From: Malus domestica
Lineage: Eukaryota; Streptophyta; Magnoliopsida; Rosales; Rosaceae
Direction: 5' to 3'
Assembly: GCF_042453785.1 (NCBI RefSeq)
Contig: NC_091675.1
Span: forward strand, 570,501-634,500
DNA: 64,000 nucleotides
Position numbers and translations under genes: made by a program. This document shows, piece by piece, positions 3,096 through 57,250 of this stretch (positions are counted from its first letter, which is position 1; every line of letters starts with the position of its first letter). The notes beneath the pieces are model-generated. The model did no database searches and was not told the DNA's origin. It saw nothing but the letters and a program-made list of their open reading frames with translations.

Positions 3096-4497
3096 AATGC
3101 CGACAGACAAAGTGAAGTTGTTTTCTCACAGAAGTGAGGGAGAGAAGTGTTTATTTCCCGCCAATTAATGCAGACGCTGTATAACTAGTTGGCATTTCAA
3201 CCAACTACTCGGCTCTCTAACTGTAATCTACCCAAAACATAATTGCCGTTCTATAGCTTTCAATTGAGCTGTTGGATAACAAAGCAATTAACTCAACAAG
3301 TTGAAAATTAGTTACTTGGGGCCCGAGCGTGGATCATTTTTCAAAGAGATATTTTACTATGATCAGAACCAATGTTATTATATTTTAAGTGTCTTTTTAT
3401 TAATGACATATAATGTATATGTTTGTGTTTCGCGTACATTGAAAAATCTCTACATTTTTCAAGCCTATGGACCACCGTGCTGTGATCAGAATTTCCAAAT
3501 ACGTATATATGCATACAGTTTATTGAACTGCCTCGAAAAGGAAGAAAAAAAATTACAAGTACAAAAGTATAAACTATACTGAAGTGGAAGTGGTGGTTGC
3601 ACTTTAGTCGCATCATCTTACTACATTAATACCATGTGGTACTCATTTACCATAACGATGACATTCACAACTACACATATATATTTTCAAGCTTTTTCTA
3701 TTTTTATTTGTACAATGTGACGGAGCTTGGATCTGAAAGTTAGCTACAACTTACGTATCAAAATTTGAAAATAAAATATATGGAACGAAAATAAAATTTC
3801 TACCTACAATATAATGTGTGGTTGTGTTACGAAGAATAACAATTCTAAATTCTTATAAATGAATTTTAGCACAATAAATTTCAATCCATACATTCCAGAT
3901 TCAAATTCTTTTTATTTATTTTTCTTTCTTTAAAAAATGAGGACAACTGGTGGCAATTCACGATTATCCATAATGGCTATAGTGAATTTCACCTTACCAG
4001 TAGTCACAGTCAAGCAAACTCATAAACTCGGAGTATCGAATCTAAAACCTCCCACATTTTTTCTTTATTAGAGAGCTACAATCCGACCTCTTCTATTCCA
4101 TAAATCTTTGTAATATATTTGAATTCTCTCCCCCTACTAATAATAATACATGTAAAAAAAATTCAACGAAATTCCTAAAAGTCAAAGCAAAAATAAAAAA
4201 GCTAAAAGGGCCGGAATATAGAGAGTTTTGGGCCTTTATAAACTACTTCCAAGCCCAGAACTGACAGTTACTAGAAACCCGTACAGCCTAGAAACTAAAC
4301 CAGCCGAGTCCAAATTTCTATAAAATTAAAGAAAACTAATGAAAAATTTAAAAAAACATTACTTTTTAATAAAAAATATTTTTAAAAAGTATAATGAATA
4401 GTGGCAGTTAAAGGTAAAAATGTGACTTTCGTTAAAAGTGAACAATACCGATAATATTTTGTTAAAACTCTCAAAAATTAATAGAGAGATTTGGGAA
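3096..4497. other. AT-rich spacer between divergent ABCB and RPA12 genes
   Basis: Shared 5' region of two divergently transcribed genes. Very AT-rich, with no credible coding sequence; short ORFs at 3301-3616 have no recognisable product. One TGGGCC motif (4229-4234), the core of plant site II elements, lies toward RPA12. Confidence 0.6.
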
Positions 4498-4544
4498 TTA
4501 GGGTTTAAGATTTAGCAGACACTGGGATTTGTGAATTAGGGTTT
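4498..4544 (+). promoter_or_regulatory. Two telo-box motifs upstream of RPA12
   Basis: TTAGGGTTT occurs at 4498-4506 and again at 4536-4544, just upstream of the probable 5'UTR intron donor (about 4596). Telo-boxes, often with site II (TGGGCC at 4229), are known to mark plant ribosome-biogenesis and translation genes. That fits an RNA polymerase I subunit. They may lie in the promoter or the 5'UTR, since the transcription start is not visible. Confidence 0.55.
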
Positions 4545-4902
4545 TATCACTGCGGCATTTCCGTCGCCAACTCTCCTCACGACGATTGCTCGTATGTAAA
4601 TTCTTAATTTGAACTTCAATTTCTTCTTTAACTTATTCCTCTGAGTAATTGTGTTTGTATAATGCATCGGTCTTTTCAGTAGTTGCTTCTAGTTTGTTTC
4701 TTGAATTCGCTGTTGGGTTTGTATTAGTATGAATTAAGATACCAGTTTGATTTTTTGGACAAAATTATTAGCTTGCATGGCAGCTGTTTGATGAAATGCT
4801 CAACTGAGCTCAAGACATGTTTTGGGTTTGACTTTGTTAATGCGTAAAGCTCCAACTGCAGGTGCAACAACGATATCTGACGGTGCATCGGAGAAGCATT
4901 TC

Positions 4903-6108
4903 ATGGCATACTCTCAAGGCCGCAATTTCTTGTTCTGCGACTTGTGTGGGAGTTTGCTAAATTTGAATTCAAATAAGTATGCTCAATGCCCTCTCTGCAA
5001 GTTCCAGCGAAATGTGAAAGGTAGAGCAAACTTAAGCTTTCGGCCATTTGTGTTAACTTATGCATCTTTAATCTGTTTTCTAGTTTCAAAATTGTTTTGT
5101 GGATGAATTCATACCGTATTTTAGTTGTATATACTCAATTTCGAAAAGAGTTTACCTTTGGAAGTGTTTTATATTCTAACTGCTATAGAATTTATCAACT
5201 TAAATCATGGCATGTCTCGGGCTTTATATTTTTCTGTGGCATATACGTAATATTTTTGTAGGTTTAACTTAAATATTTTTCCTTTCTTAGTTTTGTACCT
5301 AATATGATTTTAATTGTCTTCAGAGATATCCGGAAGAGAAATATCTTACAAAGTCACTGCTGTGGATAATCATTCTAGCCATCGTCTGTGTGTACTTTAT
5401 GTGTGCACACTAAATTGAGTTGTCGTGGTTCGCACATGTACTATGATTTGCCGACATTCACCTCTCCCATACCCTGCGTAAAGCGGGAGCCTTGTGCACT
5501 GAGTACGACGATATTTTCTCATGCCCCTTTTACAATATTCGAAAATATACGTAAGCAGTGAGTTTAGTTAAAGATAATACACTCAAAATGTTGGATCTGA
5601 TTGTAGTATTAAATTGAAATTAGTCAGTTGACACAAATCAAATAGCGTCGAATTTTACATCTCTTTCCGCATCACAGCAACAAGTTATTACTCTGTGTGT
5701 CCCTGTTGCAGGATATTAGAAGAGATCTAGGCATATCAATAATTCCAGAAGAGAAGGTGCAATTGCAAAAGGTAGCTGTGCTTTTCAGTTTTCATTTAAA
5801 GCAGTGGTATTTGTTTGGGAGGAATGTGCTTTCAATTTTTCTGATGATATTTTTCTCTGGTAAACAGACAGATGCTAAAACGTGTGAAAAATGCGGCCAC
5901 AATGAGCATACATATTACTCCCGACAGGTATGCTAGAATCGCTCAATCATCTAAGTATCTTTTCTTCTTTCTTTTTCGAGTCGTCTAATTATCTTTTATG
6001 CTGCCTTGCCTTCTTTCTTTGATACGGGTCTAGATGAGGTCGGCAGATGAAGGGGCCACTACTTTCTATGTGTGCACCAATTGCCAGCACCAATTTACTG
6101 AGAATTGA
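4903..6108 (+). CDS. RPA12: DNA-directed RNA polymerase I subunit RPA12 (A12.2-like zinc-ribbon subunit)
   Basis: Small subunit of nucleolar RNA polymerase I, used for rRNA synthesis, transcript cleavage and termination. CDS exons: 4903-5020, 5324-5361, 5712-5771, 5868-5927, 6034-6108, giving about 116 aa (Arabidopsis homologue about 119). The N-terminal zinc ribbon has Cys12, 15, 29 and 32. The C-terminal TFIIS-like ribbon has Cys78, 81, 106 and 109 around RSADEG (94-99), the acidic hairpin that inserts into the active centre. A 5'UTR intron probably ends at 4861. The ATG at 4903 ([10 protein letters not shown]) puts the first ribbon where the family has it. The donor after exon 2 of the CDS is weak (GTGGAT at 5362), so that junction, and perhaps one or a few residues near 52, is uncertain. 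Telo-boxes upstream fit a ribosome-biogenesis gene. Confidence 0.88.
5459..5517 (+). repeat. SINE-like fragment in RPA12 intron
   Basis: A block of the type 'GCGGGAGCCTTGTGCACTGA' inside the intron resembles a sequence module recurrent in plant SINEs and introns. Only about 60 bp remain and no target duplication is visible. The family assignment is from memory. Confidence 0.35.
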
Positions 6109-10450: not shown

Positions 10451-10822
10451 TGTTGTAGAAATGGATGTCCACTCAAATAATGGGCAAGTTGCCCTTCCAC
10501 TATTTAGCATGTGATTTACTTGTATAAAAACAAGCCTTATGAAACACAACAAAAGATATAGATAGATGTGAAGGGTTCACGGGAAAGAAAGAGAGGAAGG
10601 AAGGAAGAGGAAGAGAGAGAAGGAAGAGGAAGAGAGAGAATAGAGGAAGATGAGAGGAGATAATAGAGAGAGTTATCTTTGTACTCCTATTATTCTAAAT
10701 TATAATGAAAGCACCACTGCTGCCCCGAGGACGTACTCCAGTCACACTGACTGTAGAGGAACCTCGTAAATTTTGTGTCTTGTTTCATTTATTCCACTGC
10801 ACCCACCGTCGATTTTACAACA
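10451..10822 (+). repeat. 5' LTR
   Basis: 372 bp with TGTTGTA/TACAACA termini, containing a long GA-rich tract (about 10570-10675). It is followed by CGTTATCAGCACGAG, the position of a primer-binding site; the primer tRNA was not identified. Confidence 0.95.
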
Positions 10823-11610
10823 CGTTATCAGCACGAGAAGCTCTCATGTCAGTGGAAAGCACAACGCCACAAATCCTGTTCACCTCCTCCAGCTGGAATC
10901 TCATAGATAAGAAAAAAATTTCATTTCATCTTCAAATCTCAGTACAATTGATTTTCTTGAAGCAACTATATATATTGTTATATGACTGTATATCATCCTT
11001 TGCAGAAGCAAAAGAGTAAAAGACTCCAAATTTGTAAGAGAATTTGACAGCCATGTAAATAGCCTCGGAACTCCAACTTGCGGACCTCGGATTGAAATAC
11101 TTTCTTCTTGAAAGTTGTTCGTCTGCTCAGTATCTACAACATATCAAAATTTCAGAAAATGTTAACGGTGCGATCGTCGCAGATGTCTGAAATACCAAAC
11201 CCGTTTCCAATTTCCGCAGAAAACTGGGCAGCCACCTTATGAGTACCAAAACTCCATTTCGGTAGTTCAAATCGAAATTGTTTATTCACGAAAGTTGTTT
11301 GGTATCCTCTTATCCATATCATACTAAATTTTGAACTAAATCTAACGGTTTGATCTTCTCATAAGTTGCAGACACTCTTGACTCCAAAACTTATGGGAAT
11401 CGTTTCGACTTTTTCGAAACTCACCGGAAGAGGAACACCAATTGGAACTTATTGTTACTATTATTTACTGAGTAACCAAAATGACTTCGAACTGTGAAAT
11501 AATAATAAAAATAAAAGGGATGAAACAAAAGAAGTGGCAGACCAAGAAAATGAAAAAGCAAAACATGAGGACTTAATCATTGCATTTTCTGTTTTGGCAT
11601 ATTTATGTGC

Positions 11611-11905
11611 ATGGTGTTGGTTTAAAGCCCATGTCACAAGTTCTATTTATTTAAAGCAATTTATTTATAGTGGGTAGAATTATTACCCTTTGCTTTAAAG
11701 CTTTGATATTTATGTGAATGGTGCTGAATCAAAGCCCTTGTCACATGCTTTATTTACTTTAAAGCAATTTATTTACCATGGACGGTTTTACCGCCTATTG
11801 CTTTAAGTTTTGATGGTGCTGAATTAAAGCCCTTGTCACAAGCTTTATTTACTTAAATGCAATTTATTCATTATGGCTGGAATTACCGTCTATTGCTTTA
11901 ATTTA
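11611..11905 (+). repeat. Tandem repeats in the retrotransposon leader
   Basis: About three diverged units of roughly 95-110 bp, each with AAAGCCC.TGTCACA, then TATTTA.TTAAAGCAATTTATT and GCTTTAA. They are followed (11940-12190) by many short copies of a GGACCTGAAGTTCCTTGATC-type unit. These replace the expected gag region. Confidence 0.6.
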
Positions 11906-12209
11906 TTTATTGTACTTATCTTTTGTTACTATGAGTATATACAGGACCTGAAGTTCCTTGATCAGATCAGAACCTGCAGTTTCTTGATCCTCATCATATA
12001 AAATGATTGGACCCGAAGTTCCATCATACAAAAGGATCTGGCATGAAGTCCCTTGATCCTGAAGATCAGGACATGAAGTTCCTAGATGAGTACCGTAAGT
12101 TTGAAGTGCCGCAGTGCCTTAACTTAATTGTAATAAAAGCCATAAGAGTCTCAGTTTACAGACTATTAAATAAGGACCAGAAGTTCCTTATGTCCATACT
12201 CAAAATGGT

Positions 12210-12600
12210 TTAGCAGAAGCCTTTATTAATCGAATGAAATTGATTTCCCGCGCTCTGCTCATGAAAACGAAATTGCCAATTTTCTACATGGGGACATGTA
12301 AACTTTACATGATGCATTATTAATTCGGTTGAGACATGTTACCGACCATCAATACTTCTCAGTACAACTCGGGTTTGGAACCAACCAAACATTATACATT
12401 TACGAGTTTTTGGTTGTGTTGTCTATGTGCCTGTAAGACTGCCACAACGTACTGAAATGAGGCATCATTGCAGATTAGGCATTGAAGTTGAACACCATCT
12501 ATCATTCAATATTTGGAATTCTTGATTGGGGATATGTTTACCGCATGGTTTGCGGACTGTCATTTTGATAAGACAATTTTCCTGCCATTAGGGGGAGAAA
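12210..12600 (+). pseudogene. Eroded copia integrase core/C-terminal region
   Basis: Conceptual translation gives motifs like AEAFINRMKLISRALLMKT, then QYFSVQLGFG and FADCHFDKTIFLPLGG with stops and frameshifts between them. This order matches the end of the plant Ty1/copia integrase, including the familiar ADCHFDE tail. It is not functional. Confidence 0.75.
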
Positions 12601-12606
12601 ATAATA

Positions 12607-12687
12607 TCGTTCCAGAAGAACGATGAGAAAATATCATTCCAAAAGAATGATGAGAAAAGACCGTTCCAGAAGAACGAAGAGAATTTG
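12607..12687 (+). repeat. 27-bp tandem repeat, three copies
   Basis: Three units of the form CGTTCCAGAAGAACGATGAG, with small substitutions, follow the integrase tail. Each unit contains its own inverted repeat (TTCCAGAAGAA). Confidence 0.65.
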
Positions 12688-14235
12688 TCTTATTTTGATT
12701 CACGAAGCAATCAATGAGAAAATGAAATATGGATAATTGAATGATACAACGAAAGTGATGAAATCATATATACTTACTGCAAATGTGCCTACAAGAATTG
12801 ATGTCTCTGTTGGATAAAATAATGAGACAGTAAATGATTTATCTGTTGCACGCCTGAAGCGTGGCAGATTTTTAGACTCAAAAGGTTCAGTTATTCGAAA
12901 GAAGAATAATATGGCACTACTGAACTATTGCATTCCCGAAGCATAACTGTTGCATGCCAGAAGCATGACAGTCGCCGCATGGATACACGTCCCAGATAGG
13001 ACAATCCACAGACATGGGAATATTGATGTCTCATGCATGTAGCATGATAGATGTATAGGTTCCAAAGACTCAACTCCCGGAAGTGGAGAAAATCCAAGCT
13101 CTATAACGCTCAAGAGGAGGTTATGATCCACATTCTCTCAATTATGACTATCCTGGAAGAGATAGCGTCATGCCCTTGAAGAGGCAATGGATATCCAAAG
13201 AAATGAAAAGCTTTTATGCATGCGCATGCACATGAGAATATGGGATCACGGATTGATGATAACCAATGGTAATTTTGGTTTTTACAAGTAGCTACTAAAT
13301 TCATCAATGAACTGTGTTAATATTGAGTCACGTTCTTTTGTTCGTCGACAAAAGAAAAATTATTGGCCAAAATGGAGAAAGGCAATTCCATTACAATTTT
13401 GTAAGAACGTGGGCAAATGAACCTATATATATTTGAATACAATACAAATAGTCAAAAGATGTTGAACCAAGGAGGTTATATATGGGCATTTGTAATACAG
13501 TGTAATACACTTACATGATATGACACAAGGTTGTAAACGAGTTCATATAAATGGAGAATTATATACCAAGGGTTGTGAGTCGCCCACATCATATCTCCAT
13601 AAGTAAATCCCTCAAGTATACATGGGAGCGAATTGCTCTGTATAAATTCCAAAGGAAAATGTATCATGAAGTGTAGAAAACCCTTGAAGGATTCAAATTG
13701 CTTGAAGTAAGCCTCTGAAGGGTAAAACATAAAATATGTACTCAATACCAATGGATTATATAAATTGCCTTAGTGAGTACTATCATTATGATATTGTTGC
13801 AACATACTAAAATCTCTTGCAAGAGTCAATGACATTAAATTATAACTCTTGAAGAGTTGATGATATTAAATTGGGACTCCTGAAGAGTCTAGAAAAATTA
13901 TAAAGTGTTGAAGGAATTATTGTCTCGAGCTGCAGATCGAACAATCTACCAACACGAATCTTATTCATGATATTTATGATATTAAAAGAACCATATGGAT
14001 TGAAGATTATGAGTTGAATACTCATATGATGAAGACACTAAGAATAATCATTTATCTTCGTGAGGGTAAAGATAAATTAATATTTGGTCCAGAAGTACCA
14101 CATCTTAGTGAAGTATATGCTTTATTGTATTTGGCACAATACATTGAATGAAATAAAGCTTATTTATTAATATCTCCAAGAAATTACAGATATATACATA
14201 CACATGAGTTAAAACAAACAAACAGGATGGAGCCT

Positions 14236-14853
14236 TCACAAAGGTTGCTCATGTGAAGCCTCAGTACTCGGAAGTACCCCAGAAGGGGGAGGCACTGGAG
14301 ATTGATCATGTGGCACCCCAGTACTTAGCAAAACATCAGAAGGGGAAGGCATCAGTTGCTTTCGGAATCTAGCAACGAACCTCTGGTGATCACTTTGAAT
14401 CCGACTTTCGGATTCCTGCAGTTGGACGAGCTTTCTTTTCATGCTCGTAGAGTAACTATTTGCAAGCACGTGTAACATCCTATTCTCGTGCTTGAGCCCT
14501 CAGATCTCTTGTTTAAGACTTGCCACCTCCGCCATCAATGATTCAACTTGGCGAGTTTGAGCAAGTAGGCGTTGGCCCATATTGGACACAGAGCCAGCAC
14601 ACTGAACACTGAGAGCCAAGGAGTCTTGAATGGCCGACTCTTCAGACCGTTCTGAAAGGATCTTGTTATCCCTTGGAGTGAGAAGATTCCTAGCTACCAC
14701 AGTAGCGGTTATGTTATTCTTCATCATAGAGTCCCCAACCGTAAGAGGACCATTAGAAGATAAGAAGGACCGGCGCCATATATTATCCTGACGCTGCTCG
14801 TCTGTATCACTCCTAAGACTCAAATCTAAGCAAATGTTAGATGGGCAAGTCAT
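14236..14853 (-). pseudogene. Antisense ORF inside the retrotransposon, broken by one stop codon
   Basis: On the strand opposite to the element, 206 codons form one frame interrupted only by TGA at 14500-14502, which follows a Leu-Lys-Gln-Glu-Ile run. The N-terminal part has no recognised domain. The middle (VESLMAEVASLKQEI, and after the stop GLKHENRMLHVLANSY) looks like a coiled coil. The C-terminus is Pro/Ser-rich with two similar PPPSGVLPSTEA-type segments. I recall similar predicted proteins in Rosaceae annotations, apparently from retroelements, but could not check. The function of such antisense ORFs is unknown. Confidence 0.6.
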
Positions 14854-14862
14854 TTTTCAGAA

Positions 14863-16224
14863 ATGATGAAGGAAAAACAGAGGTCAAATAAAATTTCAGA
14901 AGTGCAAGAAGGTGGAAATTTCTCAGGCAGCAATTTTCTGAGCATACCCTTGAACACAATTGATGTCTCTATAAAAGAAGAGGCAGCAGAGCCACTTGTT
15001 CAAAGATCGAAGAGGCACCGCTCTCCGAATTTCAAAAGCCAGATTTTCCTGAATAAAGTTCGTTAACATTTTTCAGACGTAATCCCAACTTTTTCAGATG
15101 TCGCGTGCAATTTTGTCAAAGATCTCTGACAAAGTTGAAAACGCGTAAATCTTACTGTTCTATTTACACCACAGTTGCTGACAAGAGTAAAAGCACAGCA
15201 CCACCACTTGCTATTGAGAAATCTCTATATATGTCGACCTCTGTTCTCCATAACAAGGCAGACCCGCAACACTGCAAGAATACCTAACTCTTCCTCATCT
15301 CCGAGAATGCATCTTCAACATAGCATCTCGAAATACTCAGTTTTCTTCCTCTCCGAGAATACCTCTTCAAACATGTCACACCAGAGCAAGATTATCACAT
15401 ATCTTCAGGGACCAGAGCAAGATTATCTCATATCATGCAATCTCCCTGTCATTTCCTTTGTCCTTGTTCTTGCCTACGAAGACAAGGATAAAGAAAGCAA
15501 TATGTCGGAACTTCCACTCAAACTCCCGGTAAGGAACCGACTGCCTGGAACCTTTCCTGATTGCTTACCTAGTGTTGCTCTCGAGTAGTCATCTTTAACG
15601 GTTGGAGCTGGGTCTCCAGTCACCAAGAAGTGATGAACCATTCAAATGCAAGGGTTTGCATTCCTCTCCTGCATCATGGGACAAATCCTACAAGAGAAGA
15701 TGCCACACATGCATGGGGGAAAAGCAAGGAAAATACTACTTAAGCAAGGGGAGCAGGTAAGGAAAGTGAAAATGATACATTGAAGCATGTGGAGACAAGC
15801 GCAACAAACGCGTGCTGATTCATCCCTAACAAAACTGAAGATCACTTGCCACATGAAGCTCCTCATGGTCCAATTTCATTCAAGATCAATCCTCGAAGGT
15901 CCTTGAAGAAATCACAAGTCCGATTCAAGATCAAGTGTCCACCACTTTTGAATCAAATTCCGCTCCAGATAAAAGGAGTAAATTCAGATCTTCGATACTA
16001 GTCTAGCAGAAAGTCCTACAACTCAGTTCAAGAAAAAGCCTGTGGAAAGTTAACAAGTAAAACACCTCTTTCAGCAACTCTTCTTACTAAGAGACTAAAG
16101 CAGAACAATCAACGATCAACCTAAATGATTTGAAATCAGGGGGAGATACTCATCAGGGGGAGCATCTAAAACAGATCAAGATTTTAACGAGTCAATCGAA
16201 GACTTGTGGCCATCCAAGGGGGAG
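14863..16224 (+). other. 3' internal region of the retrotransposon
   Basis: Mostly non-coding. A plus ORF at 15175-15588 has no recognisable product. Two GGGGGAG-type purine tracts (about 16140-16162 and 16216-16224) are present; the second directly precedes the 3' LTR and is the likely polypurine tract. Confidence 0.5.
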
Positions 16225-16596
16225 TGTTGTAGAAATGGATGTCCACTCAAATAATGGGCAAGTTGCCCTTCCACTATTTAGCATGTGATTTACTTGTATA
16301 AAAACAAGCCTTATGAAACACAACAAAAGATATAGATAGATGTGAAGGGTTCACGGGAAAGAAAGAGAGGAAGGAAGGAAGAGGAAGAGAGAGAAGGAAG
16401 AGGAAGAGAGAGAATAGAGGAAGATGAGAGGAGATAATAGAGAGAGTTATCTTTGTACTCCTATTATTCTAAATTATAATGAAAGCACCACTGCTGCCCC
16501 GAGGACGTACTCCAGTCACACTGACTGTAAAGGAACCTCGTAAATTTTGTGTCTTGTTTCATTTATTCCACTGCACCCACCGTCGATTTTACAACA
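16225..16596 (+). repeat. 3' LTR
   Basis: 372 bp, identical in length to the 5' LTR with a single substitution at 16530, followed at once by the CGCAT target duplication. Confidence 0.95.
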
Positions 16597-16778
16597 CGCA
16601 TGAATATTTCTTGGACCATCTAAAAATAACATAATTAAGTCTAAGTAGATGAGATAAAAGGCTAACCAGCCAAAGATTTGACAATTTCATTCACTACCTA
16701 TTAGCCTTATCCAAAACGACATAAAAACAACTTGTCAGGTGTCTTATACGGTTAACTCGTTAAACACCCATTTAATAA

Positions 16779-38430: not shown

Positions 38431-38574
38431 AGGGGTGTGATATCCACACACCCCATTTTACTTATCACACACTTTTTAAATTTTCGACCGTCGGATCGGA
38501 TGAATTGAAGAAGATCAACAGACAGAAATGATCAAGGGGTGTGTGAAAAGTAAAATGGGTGGATAGCACACCTC
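38431..38574. mobile_element. MITE family A, copy 4
   Basis: Ends are AGGGGTGTGATATCC and the inverse of GAGGTGTGCTATCC; the core is CGACCGTCGGATCGG. The flanks TATACAGTG and TATACAGAA agree at 7 of 9 positions, an eroded 9-bp target duplication. Confidence 0.8.
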
Positions 38575-38621
38575 TATACAGAAACATCTACAAAATACGA
38601 GAGCCAACGCCTACAAAATTC

Positions 38622-38780
38622 TTTTGTATCTATGGTCTAGAGATATTCTTCTTCATTTGTAAGTGTGAGATGTTTTAGATTCGATTCTCGCCAAAAAAGA
38701 AGTTGAATCACATTATTATGACTATACCAGGATAAGAATTAGCCATTCACTCATCCCTTTAGTATAGATAATATAGTTTA
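38622..38780 (+). mobile_element. SINE copy interrupted at its tail by a MITE
   Basis: GGTCTAGAGATATTCTTCTT, then a B-box-like GATTCGATTCTCGCC and the tail GTATAGATAATATAGTTTA. This is the family of 29648. The MITE at 38781 is inserted in its 3' tail, so the SINE is older. Confidence 0.6.
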
Positions 38781-38928
38781 GGGGTGTGCTATCCACACAC
38801 TTCTTTTTACTTCTTACACATCATTTGTTAATTTATATCCGTTGATCTTCTTCAATTCTTCCGATCTGATGGCCGAAAACTAAAAAGATGTGGAAGAAGT
38901 AAAAAAATGTGTGTGGATATCACATCCC
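38781..38928. mobile_element. MITE family A, copy 5, with perfect 9-bp target duplication
   Basis: A 148-bp element, GGGGTGTGCTATCCACACAC to GGATATCACATCCC, flanked by exact TATAGTTTA at 38772-38780 and 38929-38937. Confidence 0.88.
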
Positions 38929-40290
38929 TATAGTTTATTACAAAAATGAAAATGGTTTGCCAACGAAAGTGATGGTGATTTTTTCAAGAGGTCATTAACC
39001 AAATGACGCCATTTGGCCAAGGTCTTTATTTTTTATTGTTGTTTATTCACTAACAAATTTGTTGGCAAGTTGGTCAATGTTTATTTTTCAAATAAATACG
39101 TTGGCAGCTTGACCGTGTCCAGGGTCAAATTAAAATTCAAACTTTCGTCCGCAGTTTCTTAATTTTTAATTTTTATCTCTTTAATTTTTTTAAAATTTAA
39201 TAATTTTTTTTATTGTTAAATGTTAATTCATAAAGAAAATTTATAATTAAATTTGTTGTAAATATGACATAGTTTTATTGGATGTTGGGTCCTATATATA
39301 TTTTATGAGGCGACCTTTAAGTTTCAAAAAGAAAAGAGAGTCCACAAATTACAGTGGAATGATTTTGAGTTTCATGGAATAAAGTTGTGATTTTTGAGTT
39401 ATAGGGGCAAAATGAGATCAAAATGAAGTTCTAGAGGAGTGTAGCTAATTAAGCGTTTTATTTTTTATTTTTGTTGATCATAGAAAATGAAATGGAAGGA
39501 TTTTTTTTCCCCTTCTTATAGATGAAATTTAATGGAAATTTCAATTTAAACTAAATGATTATTTAAAATGATTGAAAACATTTTTGGTGAATTTTTTTTT
39601 ATAGAATCAATCATTTGTAAAAACGCAAGTGAATTTAAAAAAACGCTTTAGTGGTTCCTAGAAGATTCATGAAGCACTTCAAATGCTTTTAAAACACAAA
39701 AACTTTTTTCTAAAAAAATTGCACTCATTTTAAAAACACTTGGAAACAAACCCTAATACTATGAACATGCTCCACCACAAAGTTAGAATTAACAATATAT
39801 ATATTTTTTTCACATGAGTCAATTTCTTAGTAGGACCTCACCGGAGGGACCCCCTAACAATTTTGTTGCCTTCCACAAAACTCAATGACAATGTGTGCAC
39901 AACAAGTGACTGTGACGGACCCCGTGAAAGTGGCAAGGTTAAGCCCCTCTCCTTTTCAGCCCATTGTATTTAGTTTTAGACCACGTCAACAAAATTGACA
40001 GTTTTGGTCTTCGGTGCACCTACCTATCACTTTTACGCTCCCCTACCGAGCAGAACTTAAACGGTTCATCTTGTTCCCAAAAAAAAAAAAAAAAAAACTT
40101 AAACGGTTCAACGGTCGAGCTCGCCGCCCGGTCCACGCGGCCCAGCCACGTCACGGCCCGCCCTCGCACGCGCTGCACGTGCGTTTTCCCGGTTCCAATT
40201 AGAAGAAAGCGTGAGAAAATAAAATTGGAAAAATTAACAAAACACGAAATTAAATTCAGAATTTCTGGAAAAAGAAAAAAACAAGAGGCG
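38929..40290. other. AT-rich spacer and promoter of the TFIIS-domain gene
   Basis: No gene is seen. An A20 run lies near 40080. The GC content rises from about 40100, as expected at a promoter. Confidence 0.4.
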
Positions 40291-50528: not shown

Positions 50529-51139
50529 GGGTAAATTGCAGTTTAACCCTTTGAACTATCATCCCAGTTGAAATTGACCCCTTAACTATTTTTTATTTTA
50601 TTTTTTATAAATTAACCTCCTGAACTATTTAAAATCGGTCAATTAATCCCTTGTCGTTATATTGCAGAATCAATTCTGTCAAATTCAAGGGCAGATTGGT
50701 CATTTCATCATTAATTGTTACTTGTCAGTTATAACCGTCGATAAAATTTTGACAAATTGGTACAAAATAATTCAAATATATATAGCATAATGAGAAAACA
50801 TAAAAAACCAAATGTTTACATAACAGACCATCTCACATTGTCATTACACATTATTTTGTTTTCTCATGTCATAATTACATTGTTGGTTATAGTTGACAAA
50901 TAAGAATTGATGAAGGAAAAATTACTTTTCCTTTGAATTTGACGAAAAAATGGATGAAATCTACCGATAAGGGGTCAATTGGCATATTTCAAATAGTTCA
51001 AGAGATTAATTAAAAAAAAATCAAGAGGTCAATTTCAACTGAAGTTATAATTCAAGAGATTAATTTCAACTGAAGTTATAATTCAAAAGGTCAATTTCAA
51101 CTGAAGTTATAATTCAAGAGGTCAAGTGACAGTTTACTC
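50529..51139. mobile_element. Mutator-like MITE, 611 bp
   Basis: Long imperfect inverted ends: GGGTAAATTGCAGTTTAACC at the left, the inverse of GAGTAAACTGTCACTTGACC at the right. Both continue into GTTGAAATTGACC. The flanks ATTAATCAA (50520-50528) and GTTAATCAA (51140-51148) agree at 8 of 9 bases. A 31-bp unit containing TTTCAACTGAAGTTATAAT is repeated three times within the right arm (51021-51113). It is non-coding. Confidence 0.7.
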
Positions 51140-52526: not shown

Positions 52527-54052
52527 CTGCTGCTTCTGGGTGGGGTTTGTGAATTTGAGAGACACTGATCAACTTTGCTCTTTGACCTCTCTTTGACAAG
52601 TCTAAGGTGGCGTGCCGGCTATTTAAAAGAAAATTAAGGGGGCCCACAATTATGTGATTTAATCAAAAGGTTGCTTCTTTTAACCGCAAATCTGGACAAG
52701 TTGGAACGAAATTTGCTAAATATCATTATCGCGTGTACAGGCCAATTGATCAAAACATTGCACTTTACTATTAGTTAGTGATGTTGGCTCAGTGAGTATC
52801 TTCTTTCGTGAAGAACTGTTGGCCGTTTTAACACTCAAATTCGATTATTATTTGTCGAGAAATAATATTCAGTCACGTATAATTGTATGTCAAGTTAATT
52901 GAATAGGACATTGCATCGCCTTCTAAACCTCATTACTCTTGTTAAGAATTAAGAATTAGTTGTTATTAAATATATATTATATTAATTAATTAAGATATTA
53001 CGCTGCCTTCTAGCATTTGAATTTAACCATTTATTCCGTTAATTTGAACAATTTAAAATATCAGAAAACAGAGTCTTGATGTTTCTCAGCTGCCATCTGA
53101 TATTGTTGTCTTGGTGGAAAAGGCTCAAGCTTGAGCTTATCTTCAGTTTCGGGCGTTTCTTGCAAGGGAGAATCAAGAATGGAGATAATGCCCGCCAATT
53201 TTGCTGTCGCACACCCGCCGATTTTGTTTTCCACTGGATAACGCCACGTTTCCTTTTTTTTTTTGGTATCACATATGACAGCCTTCTACGTGGTCGCACC
53301 GGACTTGCCAAGCACACTGCCTAACGACGTCGTTGGGCTGCACTCTTTGCTGCTTTTCTTGGCTTTCAGATACAGTGACGTTGGCCTAACTGATCGGGCG
53401 AAAATTCGATCTCGCATTTCCTGGTGGGCACGCATGTGTGATAAGTTTAGAGGCTTGTATCAAAATAAAGAAAAAATAATTAGGCTACAACCACATTTGT
53501 AAAGTTTTATGGCACCATCGAAATTCACAAGGATAATATTTGCATTTTTTCATAAAGAAATTCACATATCTTATTTCTTTTGAATAATGAATACTCACGG
53601 TATAGATTTTATGACTTTTTATCCTTATTTGAAGATCACTTCTACACAAAATTATTCGAATCGAAGATTGTTTAATCATCTAAATGTATGAAACAAATTG
53701 ACAGTGTGAGTACCAAGTAACATATTCATGATAAACCTTCTACTTATTTGATACATTTGGATAACTAAGTGATTTTTTATTAGCATAATTTTTTTTATAA
53801 GAATGATCTTCAAATATATATTAAAAAACTTAATGATTTCAATTATAAAGTTTATATATGATGTAGATATGTTATTCACAAAATGCATAATATGTGTATT
53901 CCCCATAAAAGAAAACACAAGAATTGTTCTTTTGATAATTAATTTTCTCTATATAACATGCAGGCTTGAAAACAATGAGACGATGAGTGTGTTGTTGGTA
54001 GTATTTTTATCTAGGGTAAATCTCAGTGTGTTGTTGGTAGTATTTTTATCTA
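52527..54052. other. Promoter of the small membrane protein gene and spacer
   Basis: No gene is recognised; ORFs at 53039-53502 have no known product. A 39-bp tandem duplication (53988-54065) abuts the Mutator-like element. Confidence 0.4.
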
Positions 54053-54933
54053 GTGTAAATCTCAGTTTACTACTTTCAAGTTTCGTGGTTTTCAACATTT
54101 GGTATATAATTTTTTTTTCGTCTCAAAGTCATACCGAAAGTGTTAATTTTGGGACGGTCTCACACATCCGTTATTTTGACTGTTAAGTCTCCCGTTAATT
54201 GATGACGTGGTGCTCATGTGAACAATAACTAGATGCCACATGTCATTAAGAGGTCCACGTGGAAATTAAAAATTAAAAAAAAAATTGATCGTCTTCTACC
54301 TCCCCCGACCATCTCTTCCTCCCTTATCCCTTTATTCTCTCTTCTGCACCAACCCACCAAACCCTCATCTCCTCTCCTCTTCAACTCATAATTGATCGTC
54401 TTCTACCTCCCCCGACCATCTCTTCCTCCCTTATCCCTCTATTCTCTCTTCTGCACCAACCCACCAAACCCTCAGCTCATCTCCTCTTCAACTCATTCTT
54501 TTTGTCTTGTTGTTTCGCTTCACTCCTTAATAGTACACATCTCCTCGTTGGCCATCGGCAATCTCAAGCAGCTTATCTCATATATTTCTTCCCCATTTGA
54601 TTTTATTCTATATTTTTTGGATTTTAATCCCCAAATAAATGGTGTCATAGCTTATCTTTCACAACCAGTAATCCCAATTTTTCCGTTCAAGAAACAAGAT
54701 ATACTGATTAAACAGGATTTAGTTTCCTTCCTTCTTTTCTCCGATCCCTGAATCGGATTCCACAGCCGTGAAACCGCAGCTGAATCTTTCTCTGCGTTGG
54801 TCTGTCGGATTTGGCCAAAAATGCAGGTCGGTATCGGGACCCATTAAAGCTCTGATCCTTTCACCGCCTATTTGTATCTCGGGGTTGTTGGGAAGCCATT
54901 TACTGCTATGTTCTTTGTTAGCGAGAGAATTCA

Positions 54934-55889
54934 ATGGTGAGATTCTTGAAGAGCGTCGGGTTATCACGCGTTTTCTGGTTGCGAATTCTTGTGAGGGATT
55001 TGTATTTCCTCGTGGGTTTTTTTCGGTGCATGCTCTTCTTCCACTTGGCTGTCAAGAAACCCAAAAAGCTCTGCCGCAAACCGACGAAAATACGTCAAGG
55101 TTTTGGGCTTTGCGCTGAAACCCAGAAAAGCTCTGTCGCAAACTGCCGTAAAGATCAGGTATTTAGCTGGCCTTGTTAAAATATCTACCTGGGTACTTGA
55201 TCTTGGTACTGAATCTGTAACATCCCACATCGACTAACGGATAAGGGGTGATATGCCTTATATGTACATGCCCACCTCCATATAGCACGAGGCTTTTTGG
55301 GAACTCACTAACTTCGGAATCCATCGAAACTCCGAAATTAAGCGAGTTCGGGCGAGAGCATTCCCATGATGGGTGACCCATTGGGAAGTTCTCGTGTGAG
55401 TTCCTAGAAACAAAACTGTGAAGGCGTGGCTGGGGCCCAAATCGAACAATATTGTGCTACGACGAAGTCGATATGGGATGTGTCTGAATAGTATCAGAGC
55501 CACTATGCCATGTGGTGCGAGTGTGCCAACGAGAACGTCAAGCTCCTAAAGGGATGGATTGTAATATCCCACATCAACCAACGGAGAGAGGGTGATATGC
55601 CTTATATGTACATCGAAACTTCGAAGTTAAGCAAGTTTAGGCGAGAGCATTCCCAGGATGGGTGACCCACTGGGATGTCCAAAGCGGACAATATCGTGCT
55701 ACAATGGAGATGGTATGGGATGTGACATAATCTATTGTTTTCTTTCTGTGTTTCAAGATAGCATCAATGGGGCTTCTTCTTCGAAGTCTCGCGATGCTGT
55801 TCGTTGTGATATGTCTCTCTCGGCTGCCTGATGTTTCTGCACAATCCTCAGGAAGCTCAGCATGTGCAAATGAGAGAATGGAGGGATAA
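54934..55889 (+). CDS. Putative chimeric spliced ORF carried by the Pack-MULE
   Basis: Exons 54934-55158 and 55758-55889 join in phase 0 at GATCAG/GTATTT and TTTCAAG/ATAGCA, giving 118 aa. Exon 1 (75 codons) starts MVRFLKSVGLSRVFW and has a hydrophobic stretch then a Lys/Cys-rich part (KKPKKLCRKPTK); its source is not recognised. Exon 2 encodes MGLLLRSLAMLFVVICLSRL then PDVSAQSSGSSACANE. This resembles the signal peptide and first residues of plant GPI-anchored lipid-transfer (LTPG/xylogen-like) proteins, and it runs out at the inner edge of the right inverted repeat. The intron contains a whole Cassandra element. Whether it is expressed is unknown; it may be only captured debris. Confidence 0.4.
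55216..55727 (+). mobile_element. Cassandra TRIM retrotransposon with 5S-rRNA-like LTRs
   Basis: The 5' LTR (55216-55485, 270 bp) begins TGTAACATCCCACATCG. Its 5S-like part (about 55320-55408) shows ACTCCGAAATTAAGCG, GGGCGAGAG and GATGGGTGACC, matching the order of the internal pol III promoter of plant 5S rRNA genes. A primer-binding site TAGTATCAGAGCC (one mismatch to the initiator tRNA-Met complement) follows at about 55489. The interior is about 75 bp and ends in a purine tract (AAAGGGATGGA). The 3' LTR (55560-55727, 168 bp) has lost two internal blocks. The flanks GAATC and TAATC agree at 4 of 5 bases. Confidence 0.92.
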
Positions 55890-56129
55890 GGGAGGAAGGG
55901 ATGTTCGGGGGAGGTTAAAGACTACCATTTTTTTTTTGAATTTTTAATTTCCACGTGGACCCCTTAATGACAAGTAGCGTTCAGTCATTGTCCATATGAG
56001 CGTCACACCATCAGTTAACGAGAGATTTAACAGTCAGACTGACAGATGTATGATTTTGCGACGAAAAAAACTTCATGTACTAAATGTTGAAAACCATGAA
56101 ACTTGAGGGTAGTAAACTGAGATTTACCC

Positions 56130-57250
56130 TTTTATCTACGTTGGCTACTTACGATTGCTTGAAGTGTTTCCTTCTCACCTTTTTAATTATTAAGTTGGTT
56201 TACAACGAGTGAGATGGTGAAAGACAATCTTAGTACTTGGTTTTCCATCATACTCAAAAAGCAATGGCGCATTTAGAGATTTTTCTTCTCCGGTAAGTAG
56301 ATGAGCATTAACGCTTATGTACATTGTTTTCTATTAATAGAAGCGATAAAATGTTTTATTATCAAGAACAACAAGTACAAGAGGTGTCAGATGAGTACAT
56401 ATTTTCTAGTGATTAATTTTATGATCCGGGAATGATTCACACAAAACGGCAATAATTTTAAATCTCTATACGGCTACACAAGAGACCATTAAAACCAAGT
56501 GTCTCCGAGCAAACTTGTCACAAAAAATTATAGACGCGATAAGCCTAGCATTGAACCCTTACAAAAACCATTGCAAACAGCGAGACCACAACATATTGCT
56601 TAGGCATCACATATTTGAAAGGTTGTATCAAATGCTATGAATTGAAAGTTCATGTTCAATCAAACGATATCAATCTTCGAAAAGCATAAAAAGGTAACCA
56701 AGATTTCTAGGATGATTTCAAATAGGTGTCACACTATAGATTTTATTAGATTAGATGTTATATTATTCACCGACGAGATTCGAACCTACGCCGTCATGCA
56801 ATGGCTCATCTCATTTCCACCACTGTAGTAAATGACCACTTACAATAGGTCTCAACTTTTTAAAACATGAAATAACTACCTAATGTTTTAAAAATTAAAC
56901 ATTTGTTAGGTCACTAGTGATAAAGTCACTAAAATTAACTCATGACGTGGACAAATATATTAATGTTTGTTTTCACTAATTCGTCATTTATGGAACTTTA
57001 AATGCTCAAATCACTGTCTTCATAGATAATGCGACAGTGAAAACCCATTTCAATATTTTTTTATGCCATCACTTAATGCTAATGATATGACAAATGTCAG
57101 GTCTTTAAAACCTCAAGTACTAATTTAGAATGTTATAAAAAATTGCGACAAATTTAATCATTCCTAAAGATTGGATAGTTGGTTTAAAAAAAATATATTA
57201 TGCAGTTTTCACTTCTTTTTTTTCTTCACTTATTAGTCGCCCTTTTTTTT
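56130..57250. other. Spacer between the Pack-MULE and the HSP90 promoter
   Basis: The part at 56335-56640 is the repeat related to 10030-10270. A minus-strand GTAGGTTCGAATCTCG near 56770 looks like a SINE B box. No gene is seen. Confidence 0.4.

Follow-up and report, generated by a model that had tools for sequence, protein, structure and literature searches.

Does the apple genome hold, at this locus, a new gene pieced together by a transposon, or trapped host sequence that only looks like one? The question arises from a 2-kb interval within the window, the stretch of 64,000 nucleotides of Malus domestica analysed here (C15:570501-634500, contigs being designated C plus a number). A first-pass annotation had described there a Mutator-like element with two spliceable exons, taken from two sources and forming a candidate chimeric gene, with trapped gene debris as the alternative. 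Comparison with the genome (651,096,769 bases in 19 contigs) leads us to regard the interval as, very probably, a decayed Pack-MULE relic holding one piece of a DUF1191 gene, entered later by a Cassandra retrotransposon, whose 118-codon frame is a by-product of drift.

The element and its donor gene

The interval 54053..56129 (+) is a non-autonomous Mutator-like element (MULE) of 2077 bp, recognised, as had been claimed, by long terminal inverted repeats (TIRs) and an exact 9-bp target site duplication (TSD), and in addition by a TIR family in the genome. The TSD, TTTTATCTA, is identical on the left (54044..54052) and on the right (56130..56138). The left TIR (54053..54389, + strand), which begins with GTGTAAATCTCAGTTTACTAC and whose family copies mostly show 79-88% identity, pairs with the shorter right TIR (55864..56129, - strand), the arms measuring about 337 and 266 bp, respectively; the pairing of 54052-54349 with 55864-56130 amounts to 75% identity over 298 aligned positions and to 82-87% in ungapped blocks. 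As an inverted repeat, the arms score 227 bits; block shuffling of the element, repeated 100 times, gave at most 41 bits, and the highest-scoring tile among 27 others in the window reached 155 bits. When the 2077-bp interval was placed at random, an exact 9-mer TSD within 3 bases of both ends was obtained in 0 of 2000 placements. The empty site of the element was not seen in the C8 homeologous flank, which aligns only from window position 56916 onward. Elsewhere in the window, the hairpin-like inverted repeats at 38431-38940 (with relatives at about 8950, 26975 and 29052) and at 50597-51024 are probably MITE-like, and the interval 10451-16598, with 374-bp direct repeats that are 99.7% identical and start with TGTTG, is probably a young LTR element; CGCAT flanks it on either side if ACAACA is taken as the LTR end.

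The left end carries two tandem duplications that the first-pass annotation overlooked, as it did the Cassandra element inside the "intron". One, of 107 bp, lies at the inner end of the left TIR (54283-54389 and 54390-54496, +; 97%); the other, of 39 bp, covers the left TSD and the TIR tip (53986-54024 and 54025-54063, +; 97%), and its outer copy keeps GGGTAAATCTC. MULEs with whole tandem TIRs are described in sections of PMC3310237, and the window element resembles the multiple- or tandem-TIR MULEs of those sections in that terminal sequence is duplicated at one end. It differs from them in repeating only the inner third of one TIR, and in that the repeat is single in six of the eight fetched relatives (L009, L010, L011, L014, L015 and L016), where one stretch matches both copies of 54283-54496; in the remaining two, no match reaches that far.

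MULE TSDs are typically 9 bp long, with a range of 8-11 bp. A range of 9-11 bp is given in the portion of PMC3310237 consulted. Borders were scored for the window, L009-L015, L035 and L043 (two alternative borders), leaving out L016, and of these 11 an exact 9-bp TSD was found at six (the window and L011-L015), an exact 8-bp TSD at two (L009, L010) and an imperfect one at three (L035 and both L043 borders), under a lenient rule that allowed TSD lengths of 8, 9 or 10 bp and a shift of up to 3 bases and kept the best fit, while the random control counted exact 9-mers only. Further copies with the same inverted repeats, for which the annotation had proposed to look, do exist: the query 54053-54500 yielded at least 42 genome matches, a lower bound because 40 of 2369 first-look candidates were scored. 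Between two family TIRs that lie 8.1 kb apart on C2 (L050) there is an ORF in which the MULE transposase domain PF10551 is recognised (E 5.9e-18). The window element thus belongs to a MULE family with a transposase-bearing relative, of which it is a non-autonomous member. It would have been mobilised in trans by a transposase of its own TIR family. To transpose, such an element would require no more than its TIRs and a transposase supplied from elsewhere, and its cargo would be passive.

A Pack-MULE is a MULE with captured gene fragments, whose interior derives from a host gene that itself has no flanking TIRs; a transcribed chimeric gene is no requirement for membership. For the interior, the annotation had envisaged a separate, unidentified source for exon 1 and the start of a GPI-anchored lipid-transfer protein gene for exon 2. 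A genome search with both, which it had suggested, returned a single donor gene for the two parts. The query 54497-55215 matched C12:26402941-26403662 at 92% over its full length of 719 bp, and C4:26260403-26261101 at 86% (query positions 7-719), and the exon 2 query (55730-55870) matched at four places, namely the window, C12, C4 and a sister copy of the element. The captured leader and the start of the leader intron occupy 54491..55215 (+), corresponding at 92% to C12:26402940-26403668 on the minus strand. The two "exons" match this C12 donor at 92% and 89%, and the match to the C4 homeolog is at 86%. C12 and C4 both carry the captured parts in order, about 540-570 bp apart, and the window TIR has no match in the 8 kb examined at either, so these loci were rejected as further Pack-MULEs. 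On C12, some 2 kb upstream of the donor leader, there is also a separate match of the Cassandra type (L033 6274-6473).

Downstream of the leader, the C12 gene contains a reading frame of 322 codons, the product of which matches DUF1191 (PF06697, E 4.7e-70, in a scan started one codon past the ATG); PRIMA1, below its cut-off, was the sole other family listed at E up to 0.01. Compared with the genome, the donor protein gave 16 matches, including itself and the C4 copy (89%), the others being family members or parts of them (31-45%) and short fragments (77-93%), among which were the window and its sister. One DUF1191 gene on C12 therefore donated both "exons", and the C4 copy is its homeolog. Because C12 and C4 carry both parts and the donor encodes DUF1191, the idea of two sources and the lipid-transfer identity fail: the whole 719-bp stretch is contiguous in C12 and nearly whole in C4, which leaves no place for a separate gene behind exon 1, and of the description of exon 2 only the signal-peptide start holds. 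The annotation had named as an objection the presence of this interior at unlinked places that lack inverted repeats. Formally this is the case, but the places concerned are the donor gene and its homeolog, as expected for a Pack-MULE. With captured gene sequence inside its TIRs and a donor identified on C12, the window element is confirmed as a real Mutator-like element and, by anatomy, as the Pack-MULE that had been suspected.

The sister copy and the Cassandra insertion

The sister copy, at C15:51294780-51296710, lies about 51 Mb from the window copy and has the same interior between family TIRs. It is the one stretch with the donor interior among the eight fetched from the TIR family, L016 sharing only Cassandra sequence. 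The mobility of the element is apparent from the sister TSD, TAAACTTA (8 bp), which differs from that of the window around a common interior. The sister spans donor 3833-5244 with the intron body present, and its left capture junction, at donor 3833, is that of the window copy. It lacks Cassandra, most of exon 1 and, specifically, donor 4227-4450 (window 54882-55105), covering the ATG of the proposed exon 1 (donor 4280). In the middle of the two copies, where a global alignment fails to line up, local matches and the sister sequence were used.

Pooled over three aligned blocks, the window copy is 90.7% identical to the sister, 92.3% to C12 and 85.8% to C4, and the remaining pairs are at 94.8% (sister-C12), 90.6% (C12-C4) and 88.5% (sister-C4). 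Both element copies thus resemble C12 more closely than C4, in keeping with a capture later than the duplication that produced C12 and C4. Among 565 gap-free columns, 463 are constant and eight have more than two states; private changes number 29 in the window, 14 in the sister, six in C12 and 40 in C4, so the element copies change faster than the C12 gene (29 and 14 versus 6). Changes shared by window and sister are only three, against one each for window with C4 and window with C12, and the grouping of the two copies thus depends mainly on their common junction. This scarcity of shared derived changes speaks for two independent captures of the same donor, a reading that we nevertheless hold to be highly improbable, given the left junction at donor 3833 and the same TIR family in both copies. 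According to the single-capture reading, the MULE would have acquired one contiguous piece of about 1.4 kb of the C12 DUF1191 gene, comprising leader, leader intron, start codon and signal peptide, and the new Pack-MULE would have transposed at least one more time, leading to the window and sister copies.

The history of the window copy would then involve its intron. The inferred donor leader intron (55159..55757, +) is delimited by the GT and AG that lie 610 bp apart in the donor, and its body is kept in the sister; in the window about 530 bp of it have been deleted and a Cassandra TRIM retrotransposon of 512 bp has been inserted (55216..55727, +), as identified from its 5S-like LTRs, PBS-like motif, ends, genome copies and empty sites. 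LTR comparison places a 5' LTR of 270 bp at 55216-55485 (+) and a 3' LTR, missing about 100 bp internally, at 55560-55727 (+). The 5' LTR is followed by a PBS-like TAGTATCAGAGCCA (55489-55502, +), a candidate primer binding site of the iMet type, and the internal region is 74 bp. The element runs from TGTAAC to GTGACA; the 3' LTR ends in CA and the 5' LTR in CT instead of CA, and the flanks, GAATC (55211-55215) and TAATC (55728-55732), agree at four of five TSD bases. A match to Rfam RF00001 at 55299-55406 (E 4.9e-05), in the first LTR only, reached 37.9 bits, just under the gathering score of 38; the second LTR has 68 bp of the 5S-like segment at 88%, with no Rfam listing of its own. The Cassandra query gave at least 93 genome matches including the window, with 40 of 4232 candidates scored, and six of the seven loci in which both LTRs were inspected have a GGGATGTGA-like LTR end followed by GGTATCAGA. 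Judged by match positions, C13:26386269-26387232 and C7:30741054-30742026 are tandem arrays of the form LTR-internal-LTR-internal-LTR.

At the insertion point, the sister, C12 and C4 all read through an uninterrupted GAATCTACTGTTTTC, and the notion that Cassandra was an original part of the intron was discarded on this ground. The order of capture and then Cassandra is likewise drawn from these empty sites and not from divergence, since the two clocks disagree: between the two Cassandra LTRs there are 26 differences (18 transitions) in 172 aligned sites, or about 7.6% per LTR, which exceeds the 5.1% (29/565) of the window branch. The excess might reflect a higher mutation rate in a silenced element. 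According to passages of PMC10853983, Cassandra has a 5S promoter and a methionine PBS, and its elements in Rosaceae are small. The window copy resembles the elements presented there in the 5S-like segment of both LTRs, a putative iMet-type PBS, the short internal region and the length of its 5' LTR, and differs in its internally shortened 3' LTR and in the divergence of its LTRs.

In the proposed sequence of events, the window copy would have lost the 530 bp of intron and Cassandra would have entered the remainder; the left end would have acquired its small tandem duplications, and the copy would have drifted. The outcome shares with the Pack-MULEs of rice, maize and tomato the long TIRs, the 9-bp TSD, an interior that stems from a host gene at an unlinked position, the capture of a gene 5' end and the presence in more than one copy with different TSDs, and departs from them in the Cassandra nested within the captured intron and in the duplications at the inner edge of one TIR (107 bp) and at its tip (39 bp).

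The origin of the 118-codon frame

The reported splice signals are present: a GT at 55159 and an AG ending at 55757 join two exons in frame into 118 codons plus a stop. The C12 gene has GATCAG/GTATTT and TTTCAAG/ATTTCG at these same sites, 610 bp apart, which suggests a donor leader intron of that length preceded by an untranslated exon 1; the splice sites would thus be the donor's own. Exon 1 (54934..55158, +), compared with C12 and C4, corresponds to the donor leader exon, and its ATG opens in both genes an upstream ORF of 29 codons (MARFLKSVGLSRVFWLRILVRDLYFFVGF in C12, a variant in C4) that ends in a stop. An extra T at about 55017 and adjoining changes remove this stop in the window. Exon 2 (55758..55889, +), by the same comparison, consists of the donor start codon (55767) and the signal peptide up to 55862, followed by the right TIR as far as the stop. 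Between acceptor and exon 2 ATG there are 9 nt in the window versus 14 nt in the donor; the sister also has 14 nt, and it lacks the region of the extra T. Both parts share one frame because of the 1-nt insertion and the 5-nt shortening in the window copy, two frame changes absent from C12 and C4. A gap of 10 nt in this leader exon of the C4 copy is apparently another sign that the exon is non-coding.

Exon 1 of the window differs from C12 at 12 sites, ten of them window-derived, and these are distributed over codon positions 1, 2 and 3 as 2, 5 and 3. In this small sample there is no third-position excess and no visible constraint on the long frame, and with ten changes weak selection on it may exist. 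The 118-residue translation had only below-threshold matches in Pfam. The signal peptide now stands in mid-ORF, and the frame past 55862 reads TIR-coded residues.

These observations bear on whether the element could be a working new gene, in which an ORF borne by the MULE would be transcribed from the TIR or the captured leader and spliced across Cassandra into a predicted secreted or membrane peptide of 118 residues. The donor-type GT/AG sites are retained and the fused frame is open, a pattern that decay alone need not leave and that counts against a relic, and 40% of the studied rice Pack-MULEs are transcribed according to the part of PMC8277862 consulted. That same part presents protein-coding Pack-MULEs as rare, and the frame of this one needs an inserted T and a shortening found in neither C12 nor C4, while the sister has lost the ATG with window 54882-55105; together with the displaced signal peptide, the TIR-coded residues after it, the unbiased codon positions (n=10) and the Pfam result, this makes a working gene very improbable indeed. 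The claim that the transposon assembled a chimeric gene is not upheld, as the frame depends on two changes of the window copy and the sister is without the ATG stretch; trapped gene debris, the alternative offered at the outset, is supported. The captured leader might, instead, give rise to antisense or small RNAs that regulate the DUF1191 donor: it is 92% identical to the donor leader over 719 bp and lies between long inverted ends, and both PMC13317346 and PMC8277862 mention that captured fragments can have effects through small RNAs (PMC11197308 was likewise consulted). The 8% divergence leaves fewer perfect 21-24-mers, however, and the element is on a different chromosome from the donor, and we consider such an RNA role unlikely. 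As far as can be judged from sequence, the window element is most likely a non-functional relic, its open frame being a by-product of drift.

Pieces of the donor gene elsewhere in the genome

When 2264 bp of the C12 gene (C12:26401405-26403668) were compared with the genome, 27 matches in 25 candidates were obtained. Six represent the gene itself, its homeolog, the window (two) and the sister (two); the other 21, three of which are the same 36 bp, are further pieces at about 18 additional places. Grouped by overlap and shared borders, the pieces form about seven groups, window and sister included, and a carrier is visible for three: the MULE of window and sister, MULEs on C17 and C5, and an LTR element family. 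By their TIRs, the C17 and C5 MULEs form a subfamily that is related to that of the window element but distinct from it; their TSDs are imperfect, and they have a common right border at donor 4599. The LTR elements, on C1 (L036 1893-4673) and C3 (L037 1897-4697), are about 2.8 kb long with LTRs of 274-287 bp and carry about 140 bp of the donor leader, which is a case of gene capture by a retrotransposon; L036 has a PBS-like TGGTATCAGAGCCA, CTCCT flanks L037 on both sides, the C1 copy having four of five matching bases, and relatives of the element were found on C11 (two) and C7. No flanking repeats appeared in the 5-6 kb viewed around L038, L039, L040 and L042.

Three control stretches, all from this window and only the third of donor-query length, were searched in the same genome. 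The first gave 69 matches, consisting of itself, two C8 homeolog pieces and, for the rest, hits to a dispersed repeat that occupies part of the query; the second gave itself, C8 and one 36-bp match, and the third itself and C8 only. Leaving aside that repeat and the 36-bp match, none of the three was scattered in the way the donor gene is. A tentative reading, to which we give somewhat less than even weight, is that the DUF1191 gene acts as a hot spot of capture: at least two MULE subfamilies and an LTR family would have taken its leader and its coding parts separately and several times. Some property of the locus, such as chromatin, transcription, R-loops or the leader sequence, would then invite acquisition by mechanistically unrelated elements. 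Since the controls all come from the window and only one is length-matched, the hot spot should be treated as a lead, not as a finding; the donor leader may itself be repeat-derived, and one element may have passed the donor cargo to another. No paper linking Pack-MULEs and DUF1191 was found, and the eight papers listed, of 171, in a loose literature search on repeated capture from a single donor were all unrelated; no claim on precedence is made.

What looked like an attractive candidate for a new gene is thus explained as a relic whose donor and sister copy are identified and whose rearrangements can be partly ordered. The case illustrates how splice sites and an upstream ORF inherited from a donor may give the look of a chimeric gene. 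If it is confirmed that elements of different classes captured one gene repeatedly, this would offer a natural test bed for the acquisition of host DNA by transposons.
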